From Sipunculus nudus (taxonomy: Eukaryota; Annelida; Sipuncula; Golfingiida; Sipunculidae), in the NCBI GenBank assembly GCA_026874595.1, contig CM049312.1, positions 74,436,429 through 74,500,428 on the forward strand: a stretch of DNA of 64,000 nt, written 5' to 3'. Shown here one piece after another: positions 1 to 47,604 of this stretch. The notes beneath the pieces are model-generated. The model saw only the letters and a list, made by a program, of their open reading frames with translations, was not told the DNA's origin and ran no database searches. Both the position numbers and the translations under genes were made by a program. Each line of letters starts with the position of its first letter. Position 1 is the stretch's first letter.

Positions 1-1239
1 TTCAACAAATCTGTCACCCTCTGAACCAGTAGATATTACATAGGCAGCATATTCTTTCTGAGGTTCTCTGCGTCTTCCCCCAATCAATAGTCCCAACCGT
101 GTATACAGAATAGCGAGCAATTCCTTCCGGTAATACCAGGATGAAAGACTCGCAACTGCAATTAAGAGGAGCAGCCCGCCCGCGGCTGATACCACTATTC
201 CGTATAATGGAAATGGTACACATTTAGGCAGATCTGAAGACCATTCACCACTGTAGTGACATGGCACGTTGTTATTGCCAACAAGTTTGTAGTTCTTCCA
301 GCAAGAGTATAACACCAAAGGTAAGCGACCCTGGTACCGGAGATTGCTATCAGCATATTTAACTTCCGGTATTGGTCCACATTCGACAGGCTTATACCAG
401 CAACGGCCAGTTTCGTATGTCTCGTAAAATAGACAAAATTGAGCTATGTTAGGTACCTGTACTTTTGCAAGACTCTGTGCACAACCAGCAATTAAATCTT
501 CACAAACTTCACGGCATATAAATTCTTTTCTGTCTTTCCTTTTAGGACAGTTTGGTAATTTTATCCTACAGACTGCCTCTTTCCCATGTTGGTAGCAATA
601 TGGTGGTGGAATAGTTCTTGTATCATCAACTATTAATCGCAATGCCTTATCATTGAAAAAATGAAATTTACCATCGTTTGTTTCGTCATCTTTGAGTCCA
701 AAACGTATAATCCCAGAACAAGGAGTTCCTTTTTCAAGTCGTTTGCAAGTGTAATCCAGAAATCTATGTTCCAACGTGTACGTGAAATTATAAGGTCTGC
801 GAAATTTACAGTTCTCAAAACCAATATGGAAGTCAAATGCTATACTGTGCATTGGAAGAACAAGACCAACCGTGCAAGCACATAATGTCCCTTTTTTTAG
901 TAGATTGCACACAAGAGGGAAATAAAAGAATAGCGTATTTCCGTACATTCTTCCATCTGACTTTACATGTTCTTCAATGAAGTTGCATGTAACGTTTTTA
1001 TTTATGAAATCACTTTTCGTCATAGCTAATATCAGTGAAGCAGAACGTTTGTTACACTCATCATTGTCCGTAATGTCATATGTAAAATTATGGAGCATAA
1101 CTTCAATGCCTCTCTTAGTATTCCCGAGATTGAAGTTAAAACCAGTCCAACCATCAGTTGTGTTGACAGTCATATGGTTCACTTTCATACAGACCAACCC
1201 AAACACCTGACACATTAAAAATCCTTTGAGCCAGACCAT
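1..1239 (-). CDS. FZ-like/Sushi/TM/TIR receptor, copy A (3' part cut off by window edge)
   Basis: The minus-strand frame is open from ATG 1239-1237 to base 1 (413 codons) and colinear, without indels, with the complete copy at 13025-11355. I chose this start because an in-frame stop lies just upstream (1281-1279) and the first ~17 residues (MVWLKGFLMCQVFGLVC) look like a signal peptide. Visible in order: a Cys-rich ectodomain with N-glycosylation sequons (NFTY, NVTC), a Frizzled-like Cys module (~165-280, with CREVCED and GC), a Sushi module with four Cys (~287-340), a membrane helix (~346-368) and the start of a TIR domain (EYAAYVISTGSEGDRFV). The rest of the TIR lies outside the window. It is probably a plasma-membrane sensor signalling through TIR contacts; the ligand is unknown. 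No internal stop or frameshift is seen. Confidence 0.85.
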   Translation of the reverse strand, partial: MVWLKGFLMCQVFGLVCMKVNHMTVNTTDGWTGFNFNLGNTKRGIEVMLHNFTYDITDNDECNKRSASLILAMTKSDFINKNVTCNFIEEHVKSDGRMYGNTLFFYFPLVCNLLKKGTLCACTVGLVLPMHSIAFDFHIGFENCKFRRPYNFTYTLEHRFLDYTCKRLEKGTPCSGIIRFGLKDDETNDGKFHFFNDKALRLIVDDTRTIPPPYCYQHGKEAVCRIKLPNCPKRKDRKEFICREVCEDLIAGCAQSLAKVQVPNIAQFCLFYETYETGRCWYKPVECGPIPEVKYADSNLRYQGRLPLVLYSCWKNYKLVGNNNVPCHYSGEWSSDLPKCVPFPLYGIVVSAAGGLLLLIAVASLSSWYYRKELLAILYTRLGLLIGGRRREPQKEYAAYVISTGSEGDRFVE

Positions 1240-1620: not shown

Positions 1621-1745
1621 TTATTCCCGAGATTAAAGTTAAAACCAGTCCAACCTTCAGTTGCGTTGACAGTCATATGGTCCACTTTCATACATATCAA
1701 CTCGATCATATGACACAAAAATTCCTTTGAGCCAGACCATTTCAA
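1620..1745 (-). pseudogene. Truncated 5' fragment of a third receptor copy
   Basis: On the minus strand this matches the first ~40 codons of the receptor genes: the segment CMKVDHMTVNATEGWTGFNF corresponds to CMKVNHMTVNTTDGWTGFNF of copy A. The ATG at 1740-1738 (MVW...) is out of frame with that segment because of a one-base insertion in an A run, and homology stops at the AT microsatellite. It is a non-functional duplicate of the signal peptide and first ectodomain residues. Confidence 0.85.
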
Positions 1746-2917
1746 ATTCTGCTTTTTTTTTTAAATGATGCCTTGTCAAATGAAATATATGAACATATAG
1801 TGTATATATAGTTGTATCGGTGGAAATAACATGGACAAAACAAGGTGTTTATGCAGATGAAGATGTAGTCGTGGTTACAACATCTCATTAGATTAATATG
1901 TGTTTATTTAGATTGTGATTAATTTATTGACTACGGAAGTACCTCTTTAAATAATATTATAATTTATCGATGCAACATCATCAATTGGTTGACAAAAACC
2001 ACTATTTCTTCCCGAGGTGGTTTATGATAGCGTTATCACCAAGAATAGAACATAGTTGTAATGCGTAGTTATATAAACTCTACATACTAATTTGTATTGA
2101 TAATGTAAAGTGTTTTCCCCAGGAATAGAACACGATTGCAATGCGTAGTTATATAAACTGTACAAACTAATTGGTATTGATAATGTAAAGTGTGGCTGAT
2201 AATGTAATGTATATTATTTAATATTTCAAATCATCGGGTCAGAAGTCAGTGCTACCAGTTTTTTCTAGGGTTTACAAATTGCCATATAAATTGTATGTGT
2301 GTGTATGCTGGCATTATTATATTCAAGTATAATTATAATATATATTGTAATTATTTATAATAAATAACCCACAGACAACAACACATCACAAAAAAGTTGT
2401 CAGGTACGATTGTCATTTGTGGAACCATAAAATTCTCTTAGTCTATATAAATAGAATGATTGTAGAACTTTAAGACCTAATCATTTGAATGTTTAACGTC
2501 CGGGCAGAAGTAGATGTTGCTCTATAAAGAGCTAAGTTAAATGTTGTCTATAAATAAATGTTCTGTATATTAATAAATATGAATGTGTAACCAAGACAGG
2601 GGAAGATATGCTGTGAGTAGTTAAAGTAGATTTTTTAAGGAAGGATCATTTATTAATATTATCCATTATTGGATTAGACTTTGTCGTGAGTACCTGACAT
2701 TTCGGCTGCTTGACGGACAGGGGCCTTGATTCTGTATGTTGTCGACATTGTCAATGTTATCATTATAATCTGCTGTCCCGTTATAGCCTTGGCTTTCCAA
2801 TCACCGGATTGTATGTGTGGATGTTTGTTTAATGACTAGTTGGCAGTCATGTAATTCCTATCATGGTACGTTTTTTAATGTATTCAGACCCCTTATCATT
2901 CCATATTGTCTATATTT

Positions 2918-3040
2918 TACAGATGGAGTCAGGTATTTCACAGATGGAGTCAGGTATTTCACAGATGGAGTTTGGTATTTCACAGATGGAGTCTGGTATT
3001 TCACAGATGGCTTCGGGTATTTCACAGACGAAGTCGAGTG
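2918..3040. repeat. 21-bp minisatellite upstream of receptor copy A
   Basis: About six tandem units of CAGATGGAGTCAGGTATTTCA with single-base variants. The unit length is a multiple of three, which makes open frames on both strands, but these are repeat artefacts. The same array, with its own variants, lies upstream of receptor copy B at 14390-14512. Confidence 0.9.
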
Positions 3041-3239
3041 TTCTTCAATACTCGCCATATTCACCATTATTCTGATATCTTTACCCAGCCTTACCACAGT
3101 CATTATTCAACTAGGTTTCAGAATTACCAGTTTACCACTCTCATGTTTCATTTAATAAATTTGAGTATTTTTTTCACTCACCTGATACATTATTGTATTT
3201 CAAGGAATTCAAGAATTTGAACAGAGTTGATTTGCATTT

Positions 3240-11354: not shown

Positions 11355-13025
11355 CTAACCGTTTACCAGCGGCTCCTCGTCATTATGGTAAGCCAAGTTG
11401 TTTTCCGATTGACTGACGTTACCTGGAAATGGAAGACAAAAGACCAGCCGATCAAAGAAGAAGAGTCGAGAAGGAAGTAGGTAACACCCCGTCTTGATGT
11501 AAGCTGCTAACGCTTTGTTCTCTATGGTCCTATACCTGAGGTCTTTTTCCAGCAAAATCACGATACGGAATCCTTTGATCTGACGTTCATAGTCTTCTGC
11601 CTCTTCGAAGATGTTTGGAAAAGTTCCGTCAGTCAGGAATTCTTCGGTGACAACGAATATGACCCTGGAAGACTGCTTCATCACTTGGTCGCAGTTCTCA
11701 CGAACAGACATCCCGAGATTAGCATCTCTAACAGTAGTATAAAGTGTGAACCGTAACTCACCTTCCAAGAAAGGGATCAGCTCTTCTTCAACAAATCTGT
11801 CACCCTCTGAACCAGCAGATATTACATAGGCAGCATATTCTTTCTGAGGTTCTCTGCGTCTTCCCCCAATCAATAGACCCAACCGTGTATACAGAATAGC
11901 GAGCAATTCCTTCCGGTAATACCAGGAGGAAAGACTCGCAACTGCAATTAAGAGGAGCAGCCCGCCCGCGGCTGATACCACTATTCCGTATAACGGAAAT
12001 GGTACACATTTAGGCAGATCGGAAGACCATTCACCACTGTAGTGACATGGCACGATGTTATTTCCAACAAGTTTATAGTTCTTCCAGCAAGAGTATAACA
12101 CCAAAGGTAAGCGACCCTGGTACCGGAGATTGCCATTAGCATATTTAACTTCCGGTATTGGTCCACATTCGACAGGCTTATACCAGCAACGGCCCGTTTC
12201 GTATGTCTCGTATAATAGACAAGCTTGAGTTATGTTAGGTACCTGTGCTCGTGCCAGAAGGTGTGCACAACCAGCAATTGAATCTTCACAAACTTCACGG
12301 CATATAAATTCTTTTCTGTCTTTCCTTTTTGGACAGTTTGGTAATTTTAACCTACAGACTGCCTCTATCACATGTTGGTAGCAATATGGTGGTGGAATAG
12401 TTCTTGCATTATCAACTATAATTCTCAATGCCATATCATTGAATAAATGAAATTTACCATCATTTGTTTCGTCATCAGAGAGTCCAAAAGGTATAATCCC
12501 AGAACAAGGAGTTCCTTTTTCAAGTCGTTTGCAAGTGTAATCCAGAAATCTGTGTTCCAACGTGTACGTGAAATTATAAGGTCTGCGAAATTTACAGTTC
12601 TCAAAACCAATATGGAAGTCAAATGCTATACTGTGCATTGGAAGAACAAGACCAACCGTGCAAGCACATAATGTCCCATTTTTTAGTAGATTGCACACAA
12701 GAGGGAAATAAAAGAATAACGTATTTCCGTACATTCTTCCATCTGACTTTACATGTTCTTCGATGAAGTTGCATGTTACGTTTTTATTTATGAAATCACT
12801 TTTCGTCAAAGCTGATATCAGTGAAGCAGAACGTGTTTTACACTCATCAGTGTCCGTGATGTCATATGTAAAATTATGGAGCATAACTTCAATGCCTCTC
12901 TTAGTATTCCCGAGATTGAAGTTAAAACCAGTCCAACCATCAGTTGTGTTGATAGTCATATGGTTCACTTTCATACAGACCAACCCAAACACGTGACACA
13001 TAAAAAATCCTTTGAGCCAGGCCAT
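11355..13025 (-). CDS. FZ-like/Sushi/TM/TIR transmembrane receptor, copy B (complete)
   Basis: Single-exon frame of 556 aa. The frame extends 48 codons further upstream, but I place the start at 13025 because that Met is conserved in copy A, where a stop blocks upstream extension, and it opens a signal-peptide-like segment. Order: signal ~1-17; Cys-rich ectodomain with sequons; Frizzled-like Cys module ~165-280; Sushi ~287-340 with Cys 287, 313, 327, 340 and Trp 333; membrane helix ~346-368; basic stop-transfer residues and linker; TIR ~396-535. TIR box 1 is YAAYVISAGSEGDRFV, box 2 RDANLG (no Pro where Toll-like receptors have RDxxPG), and box 3 FFFDRLVF. TIR domains act by protein contact, some as NAD hydrolases; which applies here is not decidable. 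No leucine-rich repeats are present, so this is not a Toll-like receptor. Probably an immune or developmental surface receptor. Confidence 0.9.
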   Translation of the reverse strand: MAWLKGFFMCHVFGLVCMKVNHMTINTTDGWTGFNFNLGNTKRGIEVMLHNFTYDITDTDECKTRSASLISALTKSDFINKNVTCNFIEEHVKSDGRMYGNTLFFYFPLVCNLLKNGTLCACTVGLVLPMHSIAFDFHIGFENCKFRRPYNFTYTLEHRFLDYTCKRLEKGTPCSGIIPFGLSDDETNDGKFHLFNDMALRIIVDNARTIPPPYCYQHVIEAVCRLKLPNCPKRKDRKEFICREVCEDSIAGCAHLLARAQVPNITQACLLYETYETGRCWYKPVECGPIPEVKYANGNLRYQGRLPLVLYSCWKNYKLVGNNIVPCHYSGEWSSDLPKCVPFPLYGIVVSAAGGLLLLIAVASLSSWYYRKELLAILYTRLGLLIGGRRREPQKEYAAYVISAGSEGDRFVEEELIPFLEGELRFTLYTTVRDANLGMSVRENCDQVMKQSSRVIFVVTEEFLTDGTFPNIFEEAEDYERQIKGFRIVILLEKDLRYRTIENKALAAYIKTGCYLLPSRLFFFDRLVFCLPFPGNVSQSENNLAYHNDEEPLVNG

Positions 13026-14640
13026 TTCAAGTTCTGAGTTTCGGAATAATGCCTTGTCAAATTGAAATATATGAACATATAGTGTACGTTTTGTATGTAT
13101 CGGATATTTATAACATTCCAGGACAATGGTCCTGGAGATATAGATGTCATTGTGGTTACAACACGACACTAGATGATTGTGTTCATTTAGATTGTGATTA
13201 ATCTATTGACTTGAGAAATATCTCTTTAAATAATACTATAATTAACCGATGTCACATCCTCAATTGCTCGACAAAAACCACTATTTCTCCGTGAGTTTTT
13301 TATTATATCGTTCTTACAATGTGTGTCTGCAGATGAAGATGTAGTCGTGGTTACAACATCTCATTAGATTAATATGTGTTCATTAAGATTGTGATAAATT
13401 TATTGACTACGGAAGTACCTCTTTAAATAATATTATAATTTGGCGATGCAACATTAACAATTGCTGACAAAAACCACTATTTCTTCCCGAGGTGGTTTAT
13501 GATAGCGTTTTCACCAAGAATAGAACATAGTTGTAATGCGTAGTTATATAAACTGTACAAACTAATTGGTATTGATAATGTAAAGTGTTTTCCCCAGGAA
13601 TAGAACGCAATTGGATTGAGTAGTTATATAAACTGTACAAACTAATTGGTATTGATAATGTAAAGTGTGGCTGATAATGTAATGTATAATACTTACTATT
13701 GCAAAGCATCGGGTCAGAAGTCAGTGGTACCAGTTTTTTCTAGGGTTAACAAATTGCCATATAATTGTATGTGTGTGTATGCTGGCATTATTATATTCAA
13801 GTATAATTATAATATATATTGTAATTATTTAAAATAAATAACCCACAGACAACAACACATCACAAAACAGTTGTCAGGTCCGATTATAATTTGTGGAACC
13901 ATAAAATTCTCTCGGTCTATATAAATAGAATGATTGTAGAACTTTAAGACCTAATCATTTGAATGTTTAACGTCCGGGCAGAAGTAGATGTTGCTCTATA
14001 ATGAGCTAAGTTAAATGTTGTCTATAAATAAATGTTATGTATATTACTGAATATGAATGTGTAACCAAGACAGGGGAAGATATGCTGTGAGCAGTTAAAG
14101 TAGATTTTCTAAGGAAGGATAATTCATTAATATTATCCATTATTGGATTAGACTTTGTCGTGGGTACCTGACGCTTCGTCTGCTTGACGGTCAGGGGCCT
14201 TGATTCTGTATGTTGTCGACATTGTCAATGTTATCATTATAATCTGCTGTCCCGTTATAGCCTTGGCTTTTCAATCACCGGGTTTTATGTGTGGATGTTT
14301 GTTTAATGACTAGTTGGCAGTCATGTAATTCCGATCATGGTACTTTTTTTAATGTATTCAGACCCCTGATCATTCCATATTGTCTATATTTTATGGATGT
14401 AGTCAGGTATTTCACAGATGAAGTCAGGTATTTCACAGATGGAGTTTGATATTTCACAGATGGAGTCTGGTATTTCACAGATGGCTTCGGGTATTTCACA
14501 GACGAAGTCGAGTGTTCTGGAATACTCGCCATATTCACCATTATTCTGATATCTTGACCCAGCCTTACCACAGTCATTATTCAACTAAGTTTTAGGATAA
14601 CTAGTTTACCTCTTTCATGTTTCATTTAATAATTTTAAGT
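13026..14640. repeat. Duplicated 5' flank of receptor copy B
   Basis: Paralogous to the flank of copy A (roughly 1240-3230), including two ~76-bp tandem units (about 13508-13670, each containing TATATAAACTGTACAAACTA) and the 21-bp minisatellite. It lacks the broken receptor fragment and AT tract present in copy A. Homology fades near 14640, marking the edge of the segmental duplication. Confidence 0.8.
14390..14512. repeat. 21-bp minisatellite upstream of receptor copy B
   Basis: About six tandem units of CAGATGGAGTCTGGTATTTCA type, the paralogue of the array at 2918-3040, with its own point differences. Confidence 0.9.
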
Positions 14641-14649
14641 AATTTTTTT

Positions 14650-17200
14650 TTCACTCAGCTGATGCATTATTGTAGTTCAAGGTCTGGGACTAGATATGAT
14701 TGTATTCTCTATCAATTTTTTTATATAAAATTAAATGATAATATATTCGCAACTTGTCTTATCATTTACTCGAAAGTTCCATGCCCTGACGTGTTTCTCT
14801 CAAAAATGAAAGACAACATCACCGGAATTTTCTTTCAAATAACTATTTACAATACTTGCTTTTATGTGACCAAAAGTTACTACACTGTGTTTGGGTAAGA
14901 GCGATACTTAAAGGTCCAGACTGCCACTGTCCCTGCAATTGGGTTCTCCTGTTAAAACATTACCGTGATATATCCTGATTAATGTAAAAATATTACGTTG
15001 AACCATCTGAAATGCACTTTAACATCATGCGGTATTTACATTAAAGGCTCAGAGCTGTATATATTGTCTGTCAACATACCGAGAACAACTTTAGAAAATG
15101 TTGCCGTGCATGCTGACCATACATTTATCAGTTGGACCTGTGTTAAATAATTGATTATTGTAACAGCTTACTGTAAAGAAAGCTTAATTAGTCTGCATAA
15201 TCTGCTGAAGCTGCTTGAACAGGTATTTGGTACGTTTGAATAGATAAATTATGTCTGCTGAAGTTTCACATGGAATGCTCTGATTGGTCAAAATAAAGTC
15301 ACGCGATTCATCTATTCTCCTGCAAGGAAAGATGTGGTCGAATGTCCCATACCTGAAAAAGGACTTTGTTCTCGGTAAGTTCGGTCATTTTAATATTTCA
15401 AGGATTTGTGTTTTTTTCTGCTGGACATTTTGTTGAAAAAAAAGGAATCTTTTGCCACAATCAACAACGCCGTTTTTCCAAATTTTTAAATGGGAACTGA
15501 AAATGATTTCATGTTTGAGAAATATGTCTAAGCATTTAAATATCCCAAAAGATTATTTTTTTGTAATAACTGTTCGCCAATGCCTTCAGTCAGATGTTCA
15601 AACCCAATGGTGACTCTAATTAATCAGTCATTGGCTGATATTGTCACTGTGGCAAAGGTGTGAGAATCTGCTTATATTATTAAGGTATCTAGAATAGAAT
15701 ATTGGATTTCCGTATGATTAGGAATGATCCTGACCTTGAAGCACACACACCTGAAGAAAAGCTTGAGAGACTGAAATATGTGCAATTTGTTGGTATGCAA
15801 AGTGAAATGTATAAATTACATTGGTTAAAGGTATAATCGAAATCCAAATGTTTGACCTTGAAAAATGATAATTAACAAACCTTTTTTTCCGACTGGTGAA
15901 AACTAACGGCGACGAATGATACTTAGTGTTCGGGTGTTGTAGTAAATGGATATTTATGAGATATAATCACTCGTATTTCAAATTATAAAAGAAACGGGTA
16001 GTCCCTGTCTGAGCTCCGTACATGTATCTGAGTTCAACAGACAAGACTGGTGGCTGCAGAGCTGAAAAAGGGTCAGGGCTGGAAGCGGTCACGTTAGTCC
16101 TATAAGGCCCCGCACCGGCACCCTCGTCCAACGACGAGGAGGAAGAATTAGTTTGTTTCCAGGAATTTTGCCTCCAATATCGTAAGGAGAAATAGAAGCG
16201 AAGTCTTCGGAGAGTATTGAAGATACCACACCAAGCCAAGCTCAAAGAGTTCCAAGACGCCGTTCCATGTTAGCTCCAGAACGCCACGCACTGAAGCCAA
16301 GAAGGGAAGTGGGACGAGCTAGCAGAGCAACACCAACCACGCCCACTCCGTGCCGACAACCTGCACACTGCCTCCGCCTGCTACAGACAGTCTGGCGTTG
16401 TCGAGAGCCCTTTTCTGAAAGATAACAAGTTGCTATTAGATTTCGTCATAAGCCGCAGCTGGCAAAATTGACCATTACATAGCACACGGTCATCAAGCAC
16501 ACGCTCATATAAAAGGTGAATCGAAGTAACGATGGCCATGGTTTATGGTTATGCTGATTACCCAATGTAAATACTTTATACCATGGACTCAAATATGTCG
16601 CTGCCTTTAAAACAAGTCCCGAAGTCATGAACGGAATCCCGTGAACTGTTCAGTTTACCTCGGGCCAGTAAAGAATGGATCAGATTTGTGTGTGGGTCTG
16701 GCCAATGATCCAGATGCAGGAAGGACTACCATGAATATTCACGAATGTCAAGTCACATATGTCCTTATGAATATGGGTATTTGGACCGAATAATTGAAAG
16801 CAAACACGTGTGGAGGAACATGCATCAATGAACCTTGCCATATGGGCCAATGAGTAAATTAAAACACGGATTGCGAAGTATCCCACATTGAGGACCGCCC
16901 ATATGGCGGATGCTTGCATTCGGGAGAATGTATATTTCTAGTTATTTTTGCATTAAATCAGAAAAGTGTATTTCCGCTTTTTATACCTTAAACATAGCTT
17001 TGGCTTGAATGATGTTTGATGCTCTTATATAAATAGCCCTAACCCACTCCAATGTAAATATAGATAAATACTTATCATTTAATGATGCTTTAAAGTGCAA
17101 AGAACGAATCTTTGTAAGAATTCAATGAAATATATTTTTTATCACGCATGATTGACATTTCGGAATTAAGGTAGAATAGTCGTATATTTAACCAACATAT
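14650..17200. other. Non-coding stretch with a repeat-family member
   Basis: No supportable gene. Bases ~15040-15400 belong to the dispersed family that also occurs at 29530-30240, 42000-42200 and 53140-53340 (shared: AAAGCTGAATCAGTCTGCA-like and CTGATTGGTCAAAATA-like blocks). A minus-strand frame of 92 codons at 16245-15967 has GC content above its surroundings and an acceptor-like pyrimidine tract, but no recognisable domain. Confidence 0.55.
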
Positions 17201-17935: not shown

Positions 17936-17999
17936 TCACAAGGGAGTTGTCCTTTGCTTCCACGACTCCAAGTCAAGGTCGTACATTGTCATGTATAGA

Positions 18000-18620
18000 G
18001 AATAATAAATCATTTATAGTCCAAAAGAAAAATGAGTCGTGTATGGCCCAAGAGTAAAATGAGTCGTGTATAGGCAGAGAGAAAAAATTGTCGTGTATGG
18101 CCCGAGAGAACAACGACTCGTGTAAAGTCCAAGAGAAAAATGAGTCGTGTATAGTCCAAGAGAAAAATGAGTCGTGTATAATCAGAGAAAAAATCAGTCG
18201 TGTATAGCCCGAGAGAAAAATGAGTCGTGTATAGTCCAAAAGAAAAATGAGTCGTGTATAGGCCAAGAGAAAAATGAGTCGTGTATAATCAGAGAAAAAA
18301 TGAGTTGTGTATAGCCCGAGAGAAAAATGAGTCGTGTATAGCCCCAGTGAAAAATGAGTCTTGTATATCCCGAGAGAAAAAGGAGTCGTGTATTGTCCAA
18401 GAGACAAATGAGTCGTGTATAGTCAGAGGGAAAAATGAGTCGTGTATAGTCAGAGAGAAAAATGAGTCGTGTATAGTCAGAGAGAAAAATGAGTCGTGTG
18501 TAGCCAGAGAGAAATGAATCGTATATAGCCAAAGAGAAAAATGAGTCGTGTGAAGTCAGAGAGAAAAATGAGTAGTGTACAGCCCGAGAGAAAAAGAAGC
18601 AGTGTATAGCCCAAGAAAAA
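18000..18620. repeat. 27-bp minisatellite
   Basis: More than 20 tandem, imperfect units of the form AGAGAAAAATGAGTCGTGTA plus a variable TAGTCC/TAGCCCG/TAATC tail. The ~27-bp period, a multiple of three, keeps long frames open on both strands (repeating ESCIVREKN or DSFFSWTIH), which I do not regard as genes: no start context, no flanking exon and no domain. Confidence 0.95.
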
Positions 18621-18649
18621 ATGTTTGTACGTTGTAGAAGACTTGGATA

Positions 18650-21370
18650 GCCCCATAGTATCGGCCGGGGGTAACTGTCCATTTAATGTAAAACAGGGAG
18701 CACAGCCGGTGATATCAGTCAGTCAGTGGCGTATCACTGTATAAAAATAATTAAGGAAAGTCTACCTTAGCAGTGATAACCACATTAAAACGTTATAATG
18801 TTGCAGTTAATCGTTTTACGTCTGTCATTCAACAAAGCATGTAAATTTATGTTCATTTATTAAATGCCTTCATGGTGAAGAAATTTCTACGTGTTTTGTC
18901 ACTGAGTATAAAATAATAAGGCTGGTATATAGTAGAAAATAGCTTCGAATACCAGAATAAGTACAATATCAATATCGTTGACACGGTCATAGCTGTGGCT
19001 CACAATAAGCTTCAGTCTTGCCCTTTAGCTCATATATTATAAATCTGATGCCTTTACTTGCAAACCGTGAAGTCAATGGTTTAAAAATAAAATGTTATTA
19101 AAGAGATATCATCTTAGCCCTGCCTGGGCTTTTGTGTACTGATGTTTACTGCTAAAATGCTTCAAATGAAACGTGATTTCTTGTAACGATAGACACGACG
19201 TAACTCAGTTATAGCTCTTATCACTAAAGCCCTGTAAAGTCCGTATGGTGAATCCCTGATATCTGCATATTAGGGTGTCACAAGGCTCCTGACGATTCCA
19301 TTGCATTTGCATATCGGGCCGTCACGTCTCCTGTGAATGGCATCGTTCCTATGAAGACGCTAACAGCGGTTCCATTGGCAGCAGACAGCTCAACCCGCTT
19401 GGTAACATTCGCACTGAAATCATGTTTTCAGAAAGTCCATACAATGGCCCTCGTGTCCTAATATATATCTCTGCTGTTCGAACATACGGTCCATGGGCCT
19501 CATTCAAGTGTCTTGTGGACAATTTCACATCGATTTTGTACTGTGTATTTGTTAGTGTTCAAGTTACACTTGAAGGTCTTGCCACTGTTAAGTTGCCGAC
19601 ACGCTGAACGTCGTGATCGTTTCAGTCGACCGGTACATGACGCAGTTTGACTGCGTTCGTCGCGTGTGGACCTGAATATCTCACGCTGATTGGCTGAGAT
19701 AGAGACACATTTTAAAACCGGCCTGCTGCGGTAAGCGATGGTCTGATAAACGGTGACACACTGACTGAATGAGGCTGAGGGTTATATATAGTGTTATATA
19801 TAGTGCTCAAATAGCCAAAGACCTAAACATATTAAGACTGAATAAATGGGAATATATATATAGCAAGCTGGAAGCCCACAATAGGCGGTTACTGAATTAA
19901 CCAAGTTGTTTTTGAAAAAGATTCTGGGAAAGACCACTATAATTACTCCTTACGTCACTGTGGAAAGACTTTAGTTCAGCGAGGCGGTGATGTGTGGCGC
20001 TGACTGTCCGGAACGGCCCAAGTTTATAAGTCGATGAAATAAGAGGGTCAGAGGGTAGTTATTAGTTATGTAAGTTGCCGCGTGGCAGCAGTACCGACAC
20101 TAAGCGCGACACAGTCAAAGCCATTTCATTGACTGGGCCAGTCTAATATCATCTTTACGGCCTATACTATAATAAATTCGTATGGTACCTATACAGTCCA
20201 TGGACCTTTAATGACATTCAGTGAAATGGCAAAATACATATGTATACTATTATGTTTAAACTGTCATTTACCAGGTTCAATACAAACTTAACCTGATTTG
20301 AAAGGATCCAAAAACGTCCACTGTACATTTAGATCGTTGCGCTTGTATCTCACATTCATAGGGTCAACACGTCTGTAATAACCCATTTCAAATGAAGAAA
20401 ATTAAATGTAGACAAATTCATATCATTCGAAATCAAGTATGTTCCAGTATGACAATTTAGAAAATTATGCTTGAAATTTCTACTCGACGGTGTTTGCGAA
20501 ATAAGCCCTATTAGAACAACCTTTTCAGTCCGTTGATAAGCAGACATATATTTCATTTAAACCTATAGGATATTCCATACATCCTTCAATAGATACACAC
20601 TCCTACACTATAAGTGGACTTATCCATTAAAGCCAGTATGATAAAATAAGGCGACCCGATGTGTCAGTGGGGTGCATAGAATTACTTATTAGTTAGCGGG
20701 ATTGGGGTGTAGATCCCGCTTTATATTGCCCGTAGGTAAGTCACTTAGAAGTTATAGGGTCTCCGCACATAAGGAAATGGAGGTAGTTAAGCACCGGCTA
20801 AGTTGAGTGGCCCGGAACCCTCCATATACTTAGTAAAGCGCATACCCCATTGACTGGCAGTATAATGTTTCGGTATATATAAATAAAAACCATTTTAAAT
20901 TCGGACAGACCGTTCGGCAGTTTGGTGATTTAAAACTGAAATTGCTGTGTTTTTGTATTTTAAAGGTAGGAGAAATTATACAAACTGATCATATACACAA
21001 AGTGATATCAGTTTATATTTATCTCTGTGACTACCTTTAGTAGGATTTTGTTTGAGGTAAATACTGAAATAATCTGAATGCATAAACTAAATGAAAAAAA
21101 GGATATGACATTCTAAAATTGGTACTAACATTACAAATAATATAAATTAACGTTTATGAGTTATGTATTACAGGTATGGCTCACTTAACAGCGAGAAGAT
21201 ATTCCATTAATGGTTTTATCTGAAAAAGAAAAAGAATAACTCCCTCGGAAATCTAGTGCAAAAAAAAAACTGTCCAAACATATGGGCATACCAAATTTAA
21301 GGAACACCCTTTAAGCCTTAATTAAAATTCTGATTTTTTTGTACGAGTTTTTCCTCATTTTACAGAGCCT
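18650..21370. other. Non-coding stretch
   Basis: No supportable gene. A SINE-like block is at ~20640-20850 and a short duplicated GTTATATATAGTG motif at ~19783-19806. Confidence 0.6.
20640..20850 (+). repeat. SINE-like dispersed element
   Basis: Contains AGTTAGCGGGATTGGGGTGT followed by AGATCCCGCTTTAT. The reverse-complement block at ~37160-37230 has AGTTAGCGTGCTTGGGTTGT then AGATCCCACTTTAT. The flanks also match in inverted orientation (ATAAGTGGACTTATCCATTA at ~20610 and ~37260). The GATCCC core resembles a tRNA B box, so a SINE origin is likely but not certain. Confidence 0.55.
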
Positions 21371-47107: not shown

Positions 47108-47315
47108 GAAGCGGATGGGTGGGGGGTGGGGGGTGGGGAAGGTTCCAGGGGGTCCGCAGCCCCCCCCTTTTTTTTTCCTGTCGCTGCAACCTTTCTTAAG
47201 GGGTTCAGACCAAATTTTACGGCCTTGGACCCCTTATCCAGACTACGGGACCCTTTATTTAGGAATTTTATGAGTCTTCCTGAGTTGGACCCCCCCCCCC
47301 CCCTTTTTTCTGAAT
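47108..47315 (+). repeat. Poly-G/poly-C block before exon 3 (L3 copy)
   Basis: GGTGGGGGGTGGGGGGTGGG, C runs and GGCCTTGGACCCCTTATCCA, paralogous to 33895-34120 and 57085-57260. Confidence 0.7.
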
Positions 47316-47604
47316 CCTTATTCAGCCTCTATAACTTGGTTACAGACCCATGTCCACCCGGATGGAGCCACCCATTCCTATCTGAAGGGAGGGGTGTAGG
47401 ATCTTGCTACATGATCGTTTCCAAGAAACTATTTTGGCAAAGCTCACGTAAAACGTGCAAAACTGCAGGAGGTGACCTTGTCAGCAAAGAGACGGGCGAG
47501 GAGCAGGCTCATATAGACATGGTGTTGAGGGCAGGTAGGGTGATGAAAATACACATTATAGATTGTAAAATAATTTGACATACTAATTAAACATTATACA
47601 TCCC

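Follow-up and report, generated by a model that had tools for sequence, protein, structure and literature searches.

The best-known animal TIR receptors carry either LRR (Toll) or Ig (IL-1R) ectodomains. In the parts of the published surveys considered here, amphioxus has 28 TIR combinations, including 20 specific to it (PMC2575513), the oyster has ARM-TIR, IG-TIR, TIR-TPR and EGF-TIR proteins (PMC4346834), and Aplysia has Armadillo-, EGF- and COR-TIR proteins together with 17 TIR-only ones (PMC9334734). We found no description of a protein joining a Frizzled-type cysteine-rich domain (FZ) and a Sushi module to TIR in the literature searched, which included parts of these sources and, of the principal paper on bivalve TIR proteins (Gerdol 2017, Dev Comp Immunol 70:145), the citation.

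Here we describe such a gene in a 64,000-nucleotide stretch of the Sipunculus nudus genome (GCA_026874595.1, contig CM049312.1, positions 74,436,429 to 74,500,428), referred to below as the window. Judging from its sequence, we suggest with a probability of roughly 60% that the product is a receptor that spans the membrane once, belongs to an expanded family, signals through TIR and is used in innate recognition.

Architecture of the window gene

The minus strand of window positions 11355-13025 contains a complete frame of 556 amino acids plus stop in one exon; the first frame of the plus strand over the same positions has many stops. The frame is open over 615 codons from stop to stop, and about 3e-16 frames of this length are expected in the window by chance from base composition alone. 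The window gene is real and intact.

All parts of the gene lie on the minus strand. The hydrophobic N terminus (residues 1-24; 12954-13025) is a probable signal peptide, weak by hydropathy (19-residue mean 1.39). It is followed by a putatively extracellular N-terminal domain (residues 25-160; 12546-12953) with six cysteines (62, 85, 111, 120, 122 and 144), which are present in 25 of 25 aligned genes of the window type, called type I below. The FZ domain (residues 161-283; 12177-12545) has all ten cysteines of the FZ span, at 165, 174, 215, 224, 231, 242, 246, 253, 269 and 280, and the Sushi/CCP module (residues 284-342; 12000-12176) has four, at 287, 313, 327 and 340. The transmembrane (TM) helix (residues 343-366; 11928-11999) has its hydropathy peak of 2.37 at residue 347. 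Next come a divergent TIR domain (residues 393-533; 11427-11849) with the box 2 motif RDANLG and a C-terminal tail (residues 534-556; 11358-11426) ending in DEEPLVNG.

In the hydropathy profile a single strong peak lies near residue 347, and the N terminus shows a weaker one. A single segment exceeds the threshold, and the seven-helix membrane domain of Frizzled is not found; matches to 7TM, netrin and kinase domains are likewise absent from the window protein by Pfam and hydropathy. A helix at residues 343-363 also appears in the single-sequence structure model, which carries no confidence (mean pLDDT 36.9); the two-sequence model of residues 158-345 carries none either (35.5). The product is probably a cell-surface receptor, with FZ and Sushi outside the cell and TIR inside.

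The first-pass annotation had read the locus as a single-exon frame with a Frizzled-like module, a Sushi module, one membrane helix and a TIR domain, which is borne out by Pfam, hydropathy and paralogs. It had also set the product apart from both Toll-like and IL-1 receptors, in agreement with the Pfam scan, where neither LRR nor Ig is among the five families matching the window protein at E<=10. Taken alone, the 556-aa product confirms one of the three domain assignments: Sushi scores 23.3 bits over a Pfam cut-off of 20.7, whereas Fz (26.7 against 32.1) and TIR (15.3 against 21.3) fall below theirs. Thus, the call of the architecture needed evidence from relatives, which supply the rest.

A family probably expanded in tandem

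Relatives were sought in one genome, that of the window (1.43 Gb, 153 contigs). The search with the window protein gave 82 matches, pieces as well as genes, and 40 stretches were taken around the better ones. In 27 of the 40 there is a complete gene in a single frame that aligns along the full architecture; these genes comprise 25 of type I and two of a second type, type II (L047, L048). TIR and Fz searches of the genome yielded ten more type II candidates (L049-L058), six of them intact (L049-L054) and four broken or cut short (L055-L058). The genome thus holds at least 33 intact single-frame FZ-Sushi-TIR genes on 9 contigs, 25 of type I and 8 of type II, which is a lower bound because the better matches were taken and the best candidates scored. 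The earlier suggestion of a receptor class, possibly a mollusc-specific one, is borne out as regards the class, which has many genes in this genome.

Of the 33 intact genes, 23 are clustered (at least two genes, neighbours less than 200 kb apart), and we suggest that tandem duplication of an intronless gene accounts for most of the family's growth. No relatives were found in collections of plasmids, bacteria/archaea and viruses, and an origin in a prokaryote, virus or plasmid was rejected on this ground.

The window itself contains one such duplication. A tandem duplication covers the gene (L009) and its upstream DNA; the two copies lie 11.8 kb from each other and are about 94-95% identical in DNA sequence. 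Residues 1-413 of the paralog L010 lie inside the window (1-1239, minus strand; 92% amino acid identity); the paralog runs past the window edge, and its full 556-aa ORF is intact in the genome. The upstream part of the duplicated unit (13026-14682, minus strand) matches 1240-1518 and 1840-3205 at 94-95% DNA identity. A relict fragment of receptor residues 8-40 (1623-1721, minus strand; 73% match) lies upstream of the first copy, where a local duplication encloses it.

Elsewhere in the window, positions 33500-58900 are occupied by large tandem repeat units in three or four copies, 5-13 kb apart. Seven other ORFs of the window were tested, and the one match obtained was a weak C-type lectin match in one of these repeat units (47126-47575, plus strand). 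Two overlapping ORFs at 17973-18682 (minus strand) read as repeated peptides such as LYTTHFSLG, and this segment looks like a minisatellite. No tRNA was found in the window.

Two further observations concern the genome at large. At G000:C9:17944503-17992572 one strand carries three tandem copies, similar to each other, of a type I relative, the first of them covered by L046; they match piecewise in shifting frames and are apparently duplicated broken genes. Of 299 genome-wide TIR candidates 150 were scored, and all 150 exceed the Pfam cut-off, giving at least 150 TIR matches; tandem arrays on C11, C12, C1, C9 and C14 hold many of them, and the TIR repertoire of the genome is very large.

Domain assignment from the relatives

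An alignment of the 27 intact genes (25 type I, plus L047 and L048) was scanned row by row, and at E<=1 Pfam finds Sushi in 27/27, TIR_2 in 25/27, Fz in 23/27 and TIR in 20/27. Type II has canonical Fz, Sushi and TIR: seven of the eight intact genes exceed the Pfam cut-offs for all three together, and Fz of L053 scores 28.4 bits in the protein scan (cut-off 32.1) and 33.6 in the genome search. The Fz cut-off is also passed in the genome search by seven intact type I genes (L014, L019, L027, L028, L029, L030 and L031), and by L011 and L021 when neighbouring pieces are added.

The profile of the 27-gene alignment matches 166 PDB sequences, including CR1 (E 1e-131, summed over Sushi repeats) and the TLR2 TIR domain (1e-18). 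Sushi proteins and TLR TIR domains make up the best 60 of these 166, with no Frizzled among them. With a profile built from the FZ region of ten members (8 type II, 2 type I), 52 PDB sequences are found at E<=0.1, all of them Frizzled, secreted FZ-related, Smoothened or ROR2.

Profile-profile comparison joins type I FZ with its type II counterpart at 97.3% over 70 columns of the C-terminal part, and type II FZ with Frizzled CRDs encoded in this genome at 97.2% over 101 columns; the direct comparison of type I FZ with these CRDs is weak (28%). With TLR TIRs the type II TIR aligns end to end (hhalign 100%) and the type I TIR at 98.7% over 139 columns, both with a TLR set that excludes L067. Between the two types the N-terminal domain is linked weakly (27%), and in L051 residues 96-171 of this domain match TMEM145_N weakly, below the cut-off (E 1.5e-4). 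At the level of sequence, the FZ-Sushi-TM-TIR architecture is settled by these relatives.

The type I TIR domain and tail

Box 2 reads RDxxLG or RDxxIG in all 25 type I genes, as opposed to RDFxPG in the eight intact type II genes. For several TIR groups, RDxxPG is given as the typical motif in the part of the source considered here (PMC7075850). The helix-C Trp and, by alignment, Glu are absent in type I, and both are present in all eight intact type II genes; in TLRs of the same genome Glu is found in 6/6 and Trp in 5/6. Immediately before the invariant Phe473, the alignment places Ile in the window protein and Glu in the eight intact type II genes. In SARM1-like NADase TIR domains the catalytic glutamate is on helix C. 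In the TIR tree type I is monophyletic with a support of 72 (100 in the tree with another stretch of L067), and so is type II (10 rows, support 100), while the TLRs are not monophyletic. The stem leading to type I is long, 1.83 substitutions per site.

Type I members might be regulatory or decoy receptors, whose diverged TIR competes with or dampens signalling by TLRs or type II. The altered box 2, the missing helix-C residues and the long stem all fit such a role. So does L068 (G000:C2:23602500-23607500, 1798-3126, minus strand), a 443-aa paralog whose frame has the FZ/Sushi ectodomain, a TM helix and a short, basic end but lacks a TIR, possibly itself a decoy or co-receptor. However, the box-2 Pro is present in just two of six aligned TLRs of this genome (L062, L067), the others (L063, L064, L065 and L066) having V or I. 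A receptor without this Pro is therefore nothing unusual; its absence alone is no mark of a dead TIR, and its loss as a sign of an altered TIR is weakened. Moreover, no other part of type I is as conserved as the TIR, on which purifying selection acts; this fits active signalling too. We consider the decoy role unlikely, though it fares better than the other alternatives discussed below; since type I lacks the helix-C Trp and Glu, the usual signalling is not certain.

The tail carries the acidic dileucine motif [DE]xxxL[LI] in 13 of the 27 aligned genes, all of type I. Shuffled tails give 0.47 such genes, to be compared with the 13 observed, in which related copies count several times. The window protein has a near-match only, DEEPLV. 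The acidic dileucine is an endosomal/lysosomal sorting signal.

The FZ module and its ligand

From its Frizzled-type module the receptor had earlier been proposed to bind a Wnt or Wnt-like lipidated ligand and to couple this ligand to TIR signalling. The matches of the FZ profile are indeed led by Frizzled CRDs, and type II keeps the MPG..G segment of these domains. However, type I is devoid of this segment, which type II has in common with Frizzled CRDs, and FZ modules of other proteins are known to bind other things. The ectodomains also diverge, with a mean identity of 34% in type I. The genome contains 36 Wnt exon matches, which group by position into about 11 loci, against at least 33 receptors. 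A Wnt ligand is therefore improbable, and a one-to-one pairing of Wnts with receptors is rejected. One cluster of Wnt exons (G000:C16:12085538-12284944), about four genes by position, lies on a single contig. As to the complement-type partner that was also proposed for Sushi, nothing in the analysis points to one.

In the FZ domain, Cys215 and Cys253 are the third and eighth FZ cysteines, which pair in Frizzled structures; both are absent in 6 of the 27 aligned genes and both present in 21, and no gene lacks just one. In the TIR tree the six genes are monophyletic (support 83), and the joint loss of the two cysteines is therefore probably one event, yet it concerns the expected pair. At the position of Cys165, neither of the two type II rows has a cysteine; their alignment there, in the N-terminal part of FZ, is difficult.

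Divergence and selection

The ectodomain is more diverged than the TIR domain across the family. Mean pairwise identity of the 25 type I genes rises inwards, from 29% in the N-terminal domain to 36% in FZ, 41% in Sushi, 45% in TM and 51% in TIR. Omega of the ectodomain and of TIR was compared in 15 close pairs, of which 13 gave both ratios and two gave none; pairs within a cluster are not independent. The ectodomain ratio is clearly above that of TIR in 7 of the 13 (for example, 0.53 against 0.15, 0.52 against 0.20 and 0.65 against 0.28) and near equal in L018/L026 (0.14 against 0.12). In five pairs the ectodomain is not faster: L009/L010 (0.58 against 0.63), L019/L021 (0.30 against 0.35), L030/L031 (0.22 against 0.29), L029/L030 (0.37 against 0.36) and L034/L037 (0.69 against 0.69). 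Omega is below 1 in nearly every segment, with the exception of the TM of L029/L030 (1.29, on two synonymous changes). Hence, the coding frames are maintained under purifying selection, and weaker constraint on the ectodomain, rather than diversifying selection, may suffice to explain its divergence.

The two window copies differ at 43 amino acids over their full length. The impression that these changes are nearly all extracellular was rejected: it holds for residues 1-413, where 31 of 32 changes are extracellular, but over the full length 10 of the 43 fall in TIR. FZ, with 123 of the 556 residues, takes 18 of the 43. Its non-synonymous excess in this pair (p = 9e-5, from approximate site counts without signal peptide and tail, FZ having been chosen as the test region after the counts were seen) is accompanied by no synonymous excess.

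A variable head could also serve self/non-self, gamete or cell-cell recognition instead of pathogen recognition, with the conserved TIR used for adhesion or developmental signalling. Allorecognition families are typically tandem and divergent too, and adhesion proteins contain Sushi and FZ modules; against this, animal TIR proteins are mostly immune, and we regard such a use as no more probable than a Wnt ligand. A spurious join, pseudogene or chance ORF has a nearly negligible probability: Fz and TIR are under the Pfam cut-offs in the window protein alone and several broken relatives exist in the genome, but 33 intact one-frame paralogs, omega below 1 and invariant cysteines contradict it, and both a chance ORF and a wrong join were rejected on these grounds.

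Proposed mode of action

For the innate receptor that we favour, the following sequence of events is suggested. The extracellular N-terminal domain, the FZ domain and the Sushi module would bind a ligand, which may be microbial, a product of damage or non-self rather than a conserved Wnt. Ligand binding would bring receptors together, and their cytoplasmic TIR domains might then assemble with each other or with TIR adaptors and start the signal, as in Toll-like and IL-1 receptors. The tandemly expanded family would present a variable FZ/Sushi head on a conserved TIR, as innate recognition families do, and its role would accordingly be immune.

We also put forward, tentatively and at slightly less than even odds, that these genes form an undescribed class of animal innate receptors with FZ-Sushi-TM-TIR architecture and two subfamilies. 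Type II would be the canonical one, with a Frizzled-like CRD and a TLR-like TIR, and type I the radiated one, in which the FZ head diversifies, the TIR is strongly diverged and 13 of 25 members have the acidic dileucine tail. If so, this tail would point to endosomal sorting of type I, and the class would represent variable recognition based on the fold of Wnt receptors in place of LRR or Ig. An FZ-CRD and a Sushi module on TIR, in at least 33 intact genes of one genome, would add another type of head to those known and would show the FZ fold in use in a diverging recognition family. The single-exon genes are directly expressible in a search for ligands and signalling output.

Comparison with known receptors

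Lineage-expanded TIR proteins with unusual partner domains are also found in amphioxus (PMC2575513) and in the ecTIR-DC families (Gerdol 2017), as far as these sources are considered here; no FZ or Sushi partner is named for the amphioxus proteins in the compared part of the former. The IL-1 receptor family and other Ig-TIR proteins likewise have a non-LRR ectodomain, one TM helix and TIR, but their ectodomain is Ig, to which the window protein has no match. With Frizzled, sFRP, Smoothened and ROR the window protein shares an FZ-type CRD with ten cysteines; unlike them, it combines this domain with one TM helix and TIR and has no 7TM, netrin or kinase match. The Sushi/CCP module is common to complement regulators and receptors (CR1, CR2, factor H). 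However, unlike in these proteins, it occurs in the window protein as one module joined to TIR. The Toll-like receptors, including L062-L066 of the same genome, are similarly single-pass proteins with a cytoplasmic TIR. However, they have LRR, whereas the window protein, with no LRR match, carries FZ and Sushi instead.
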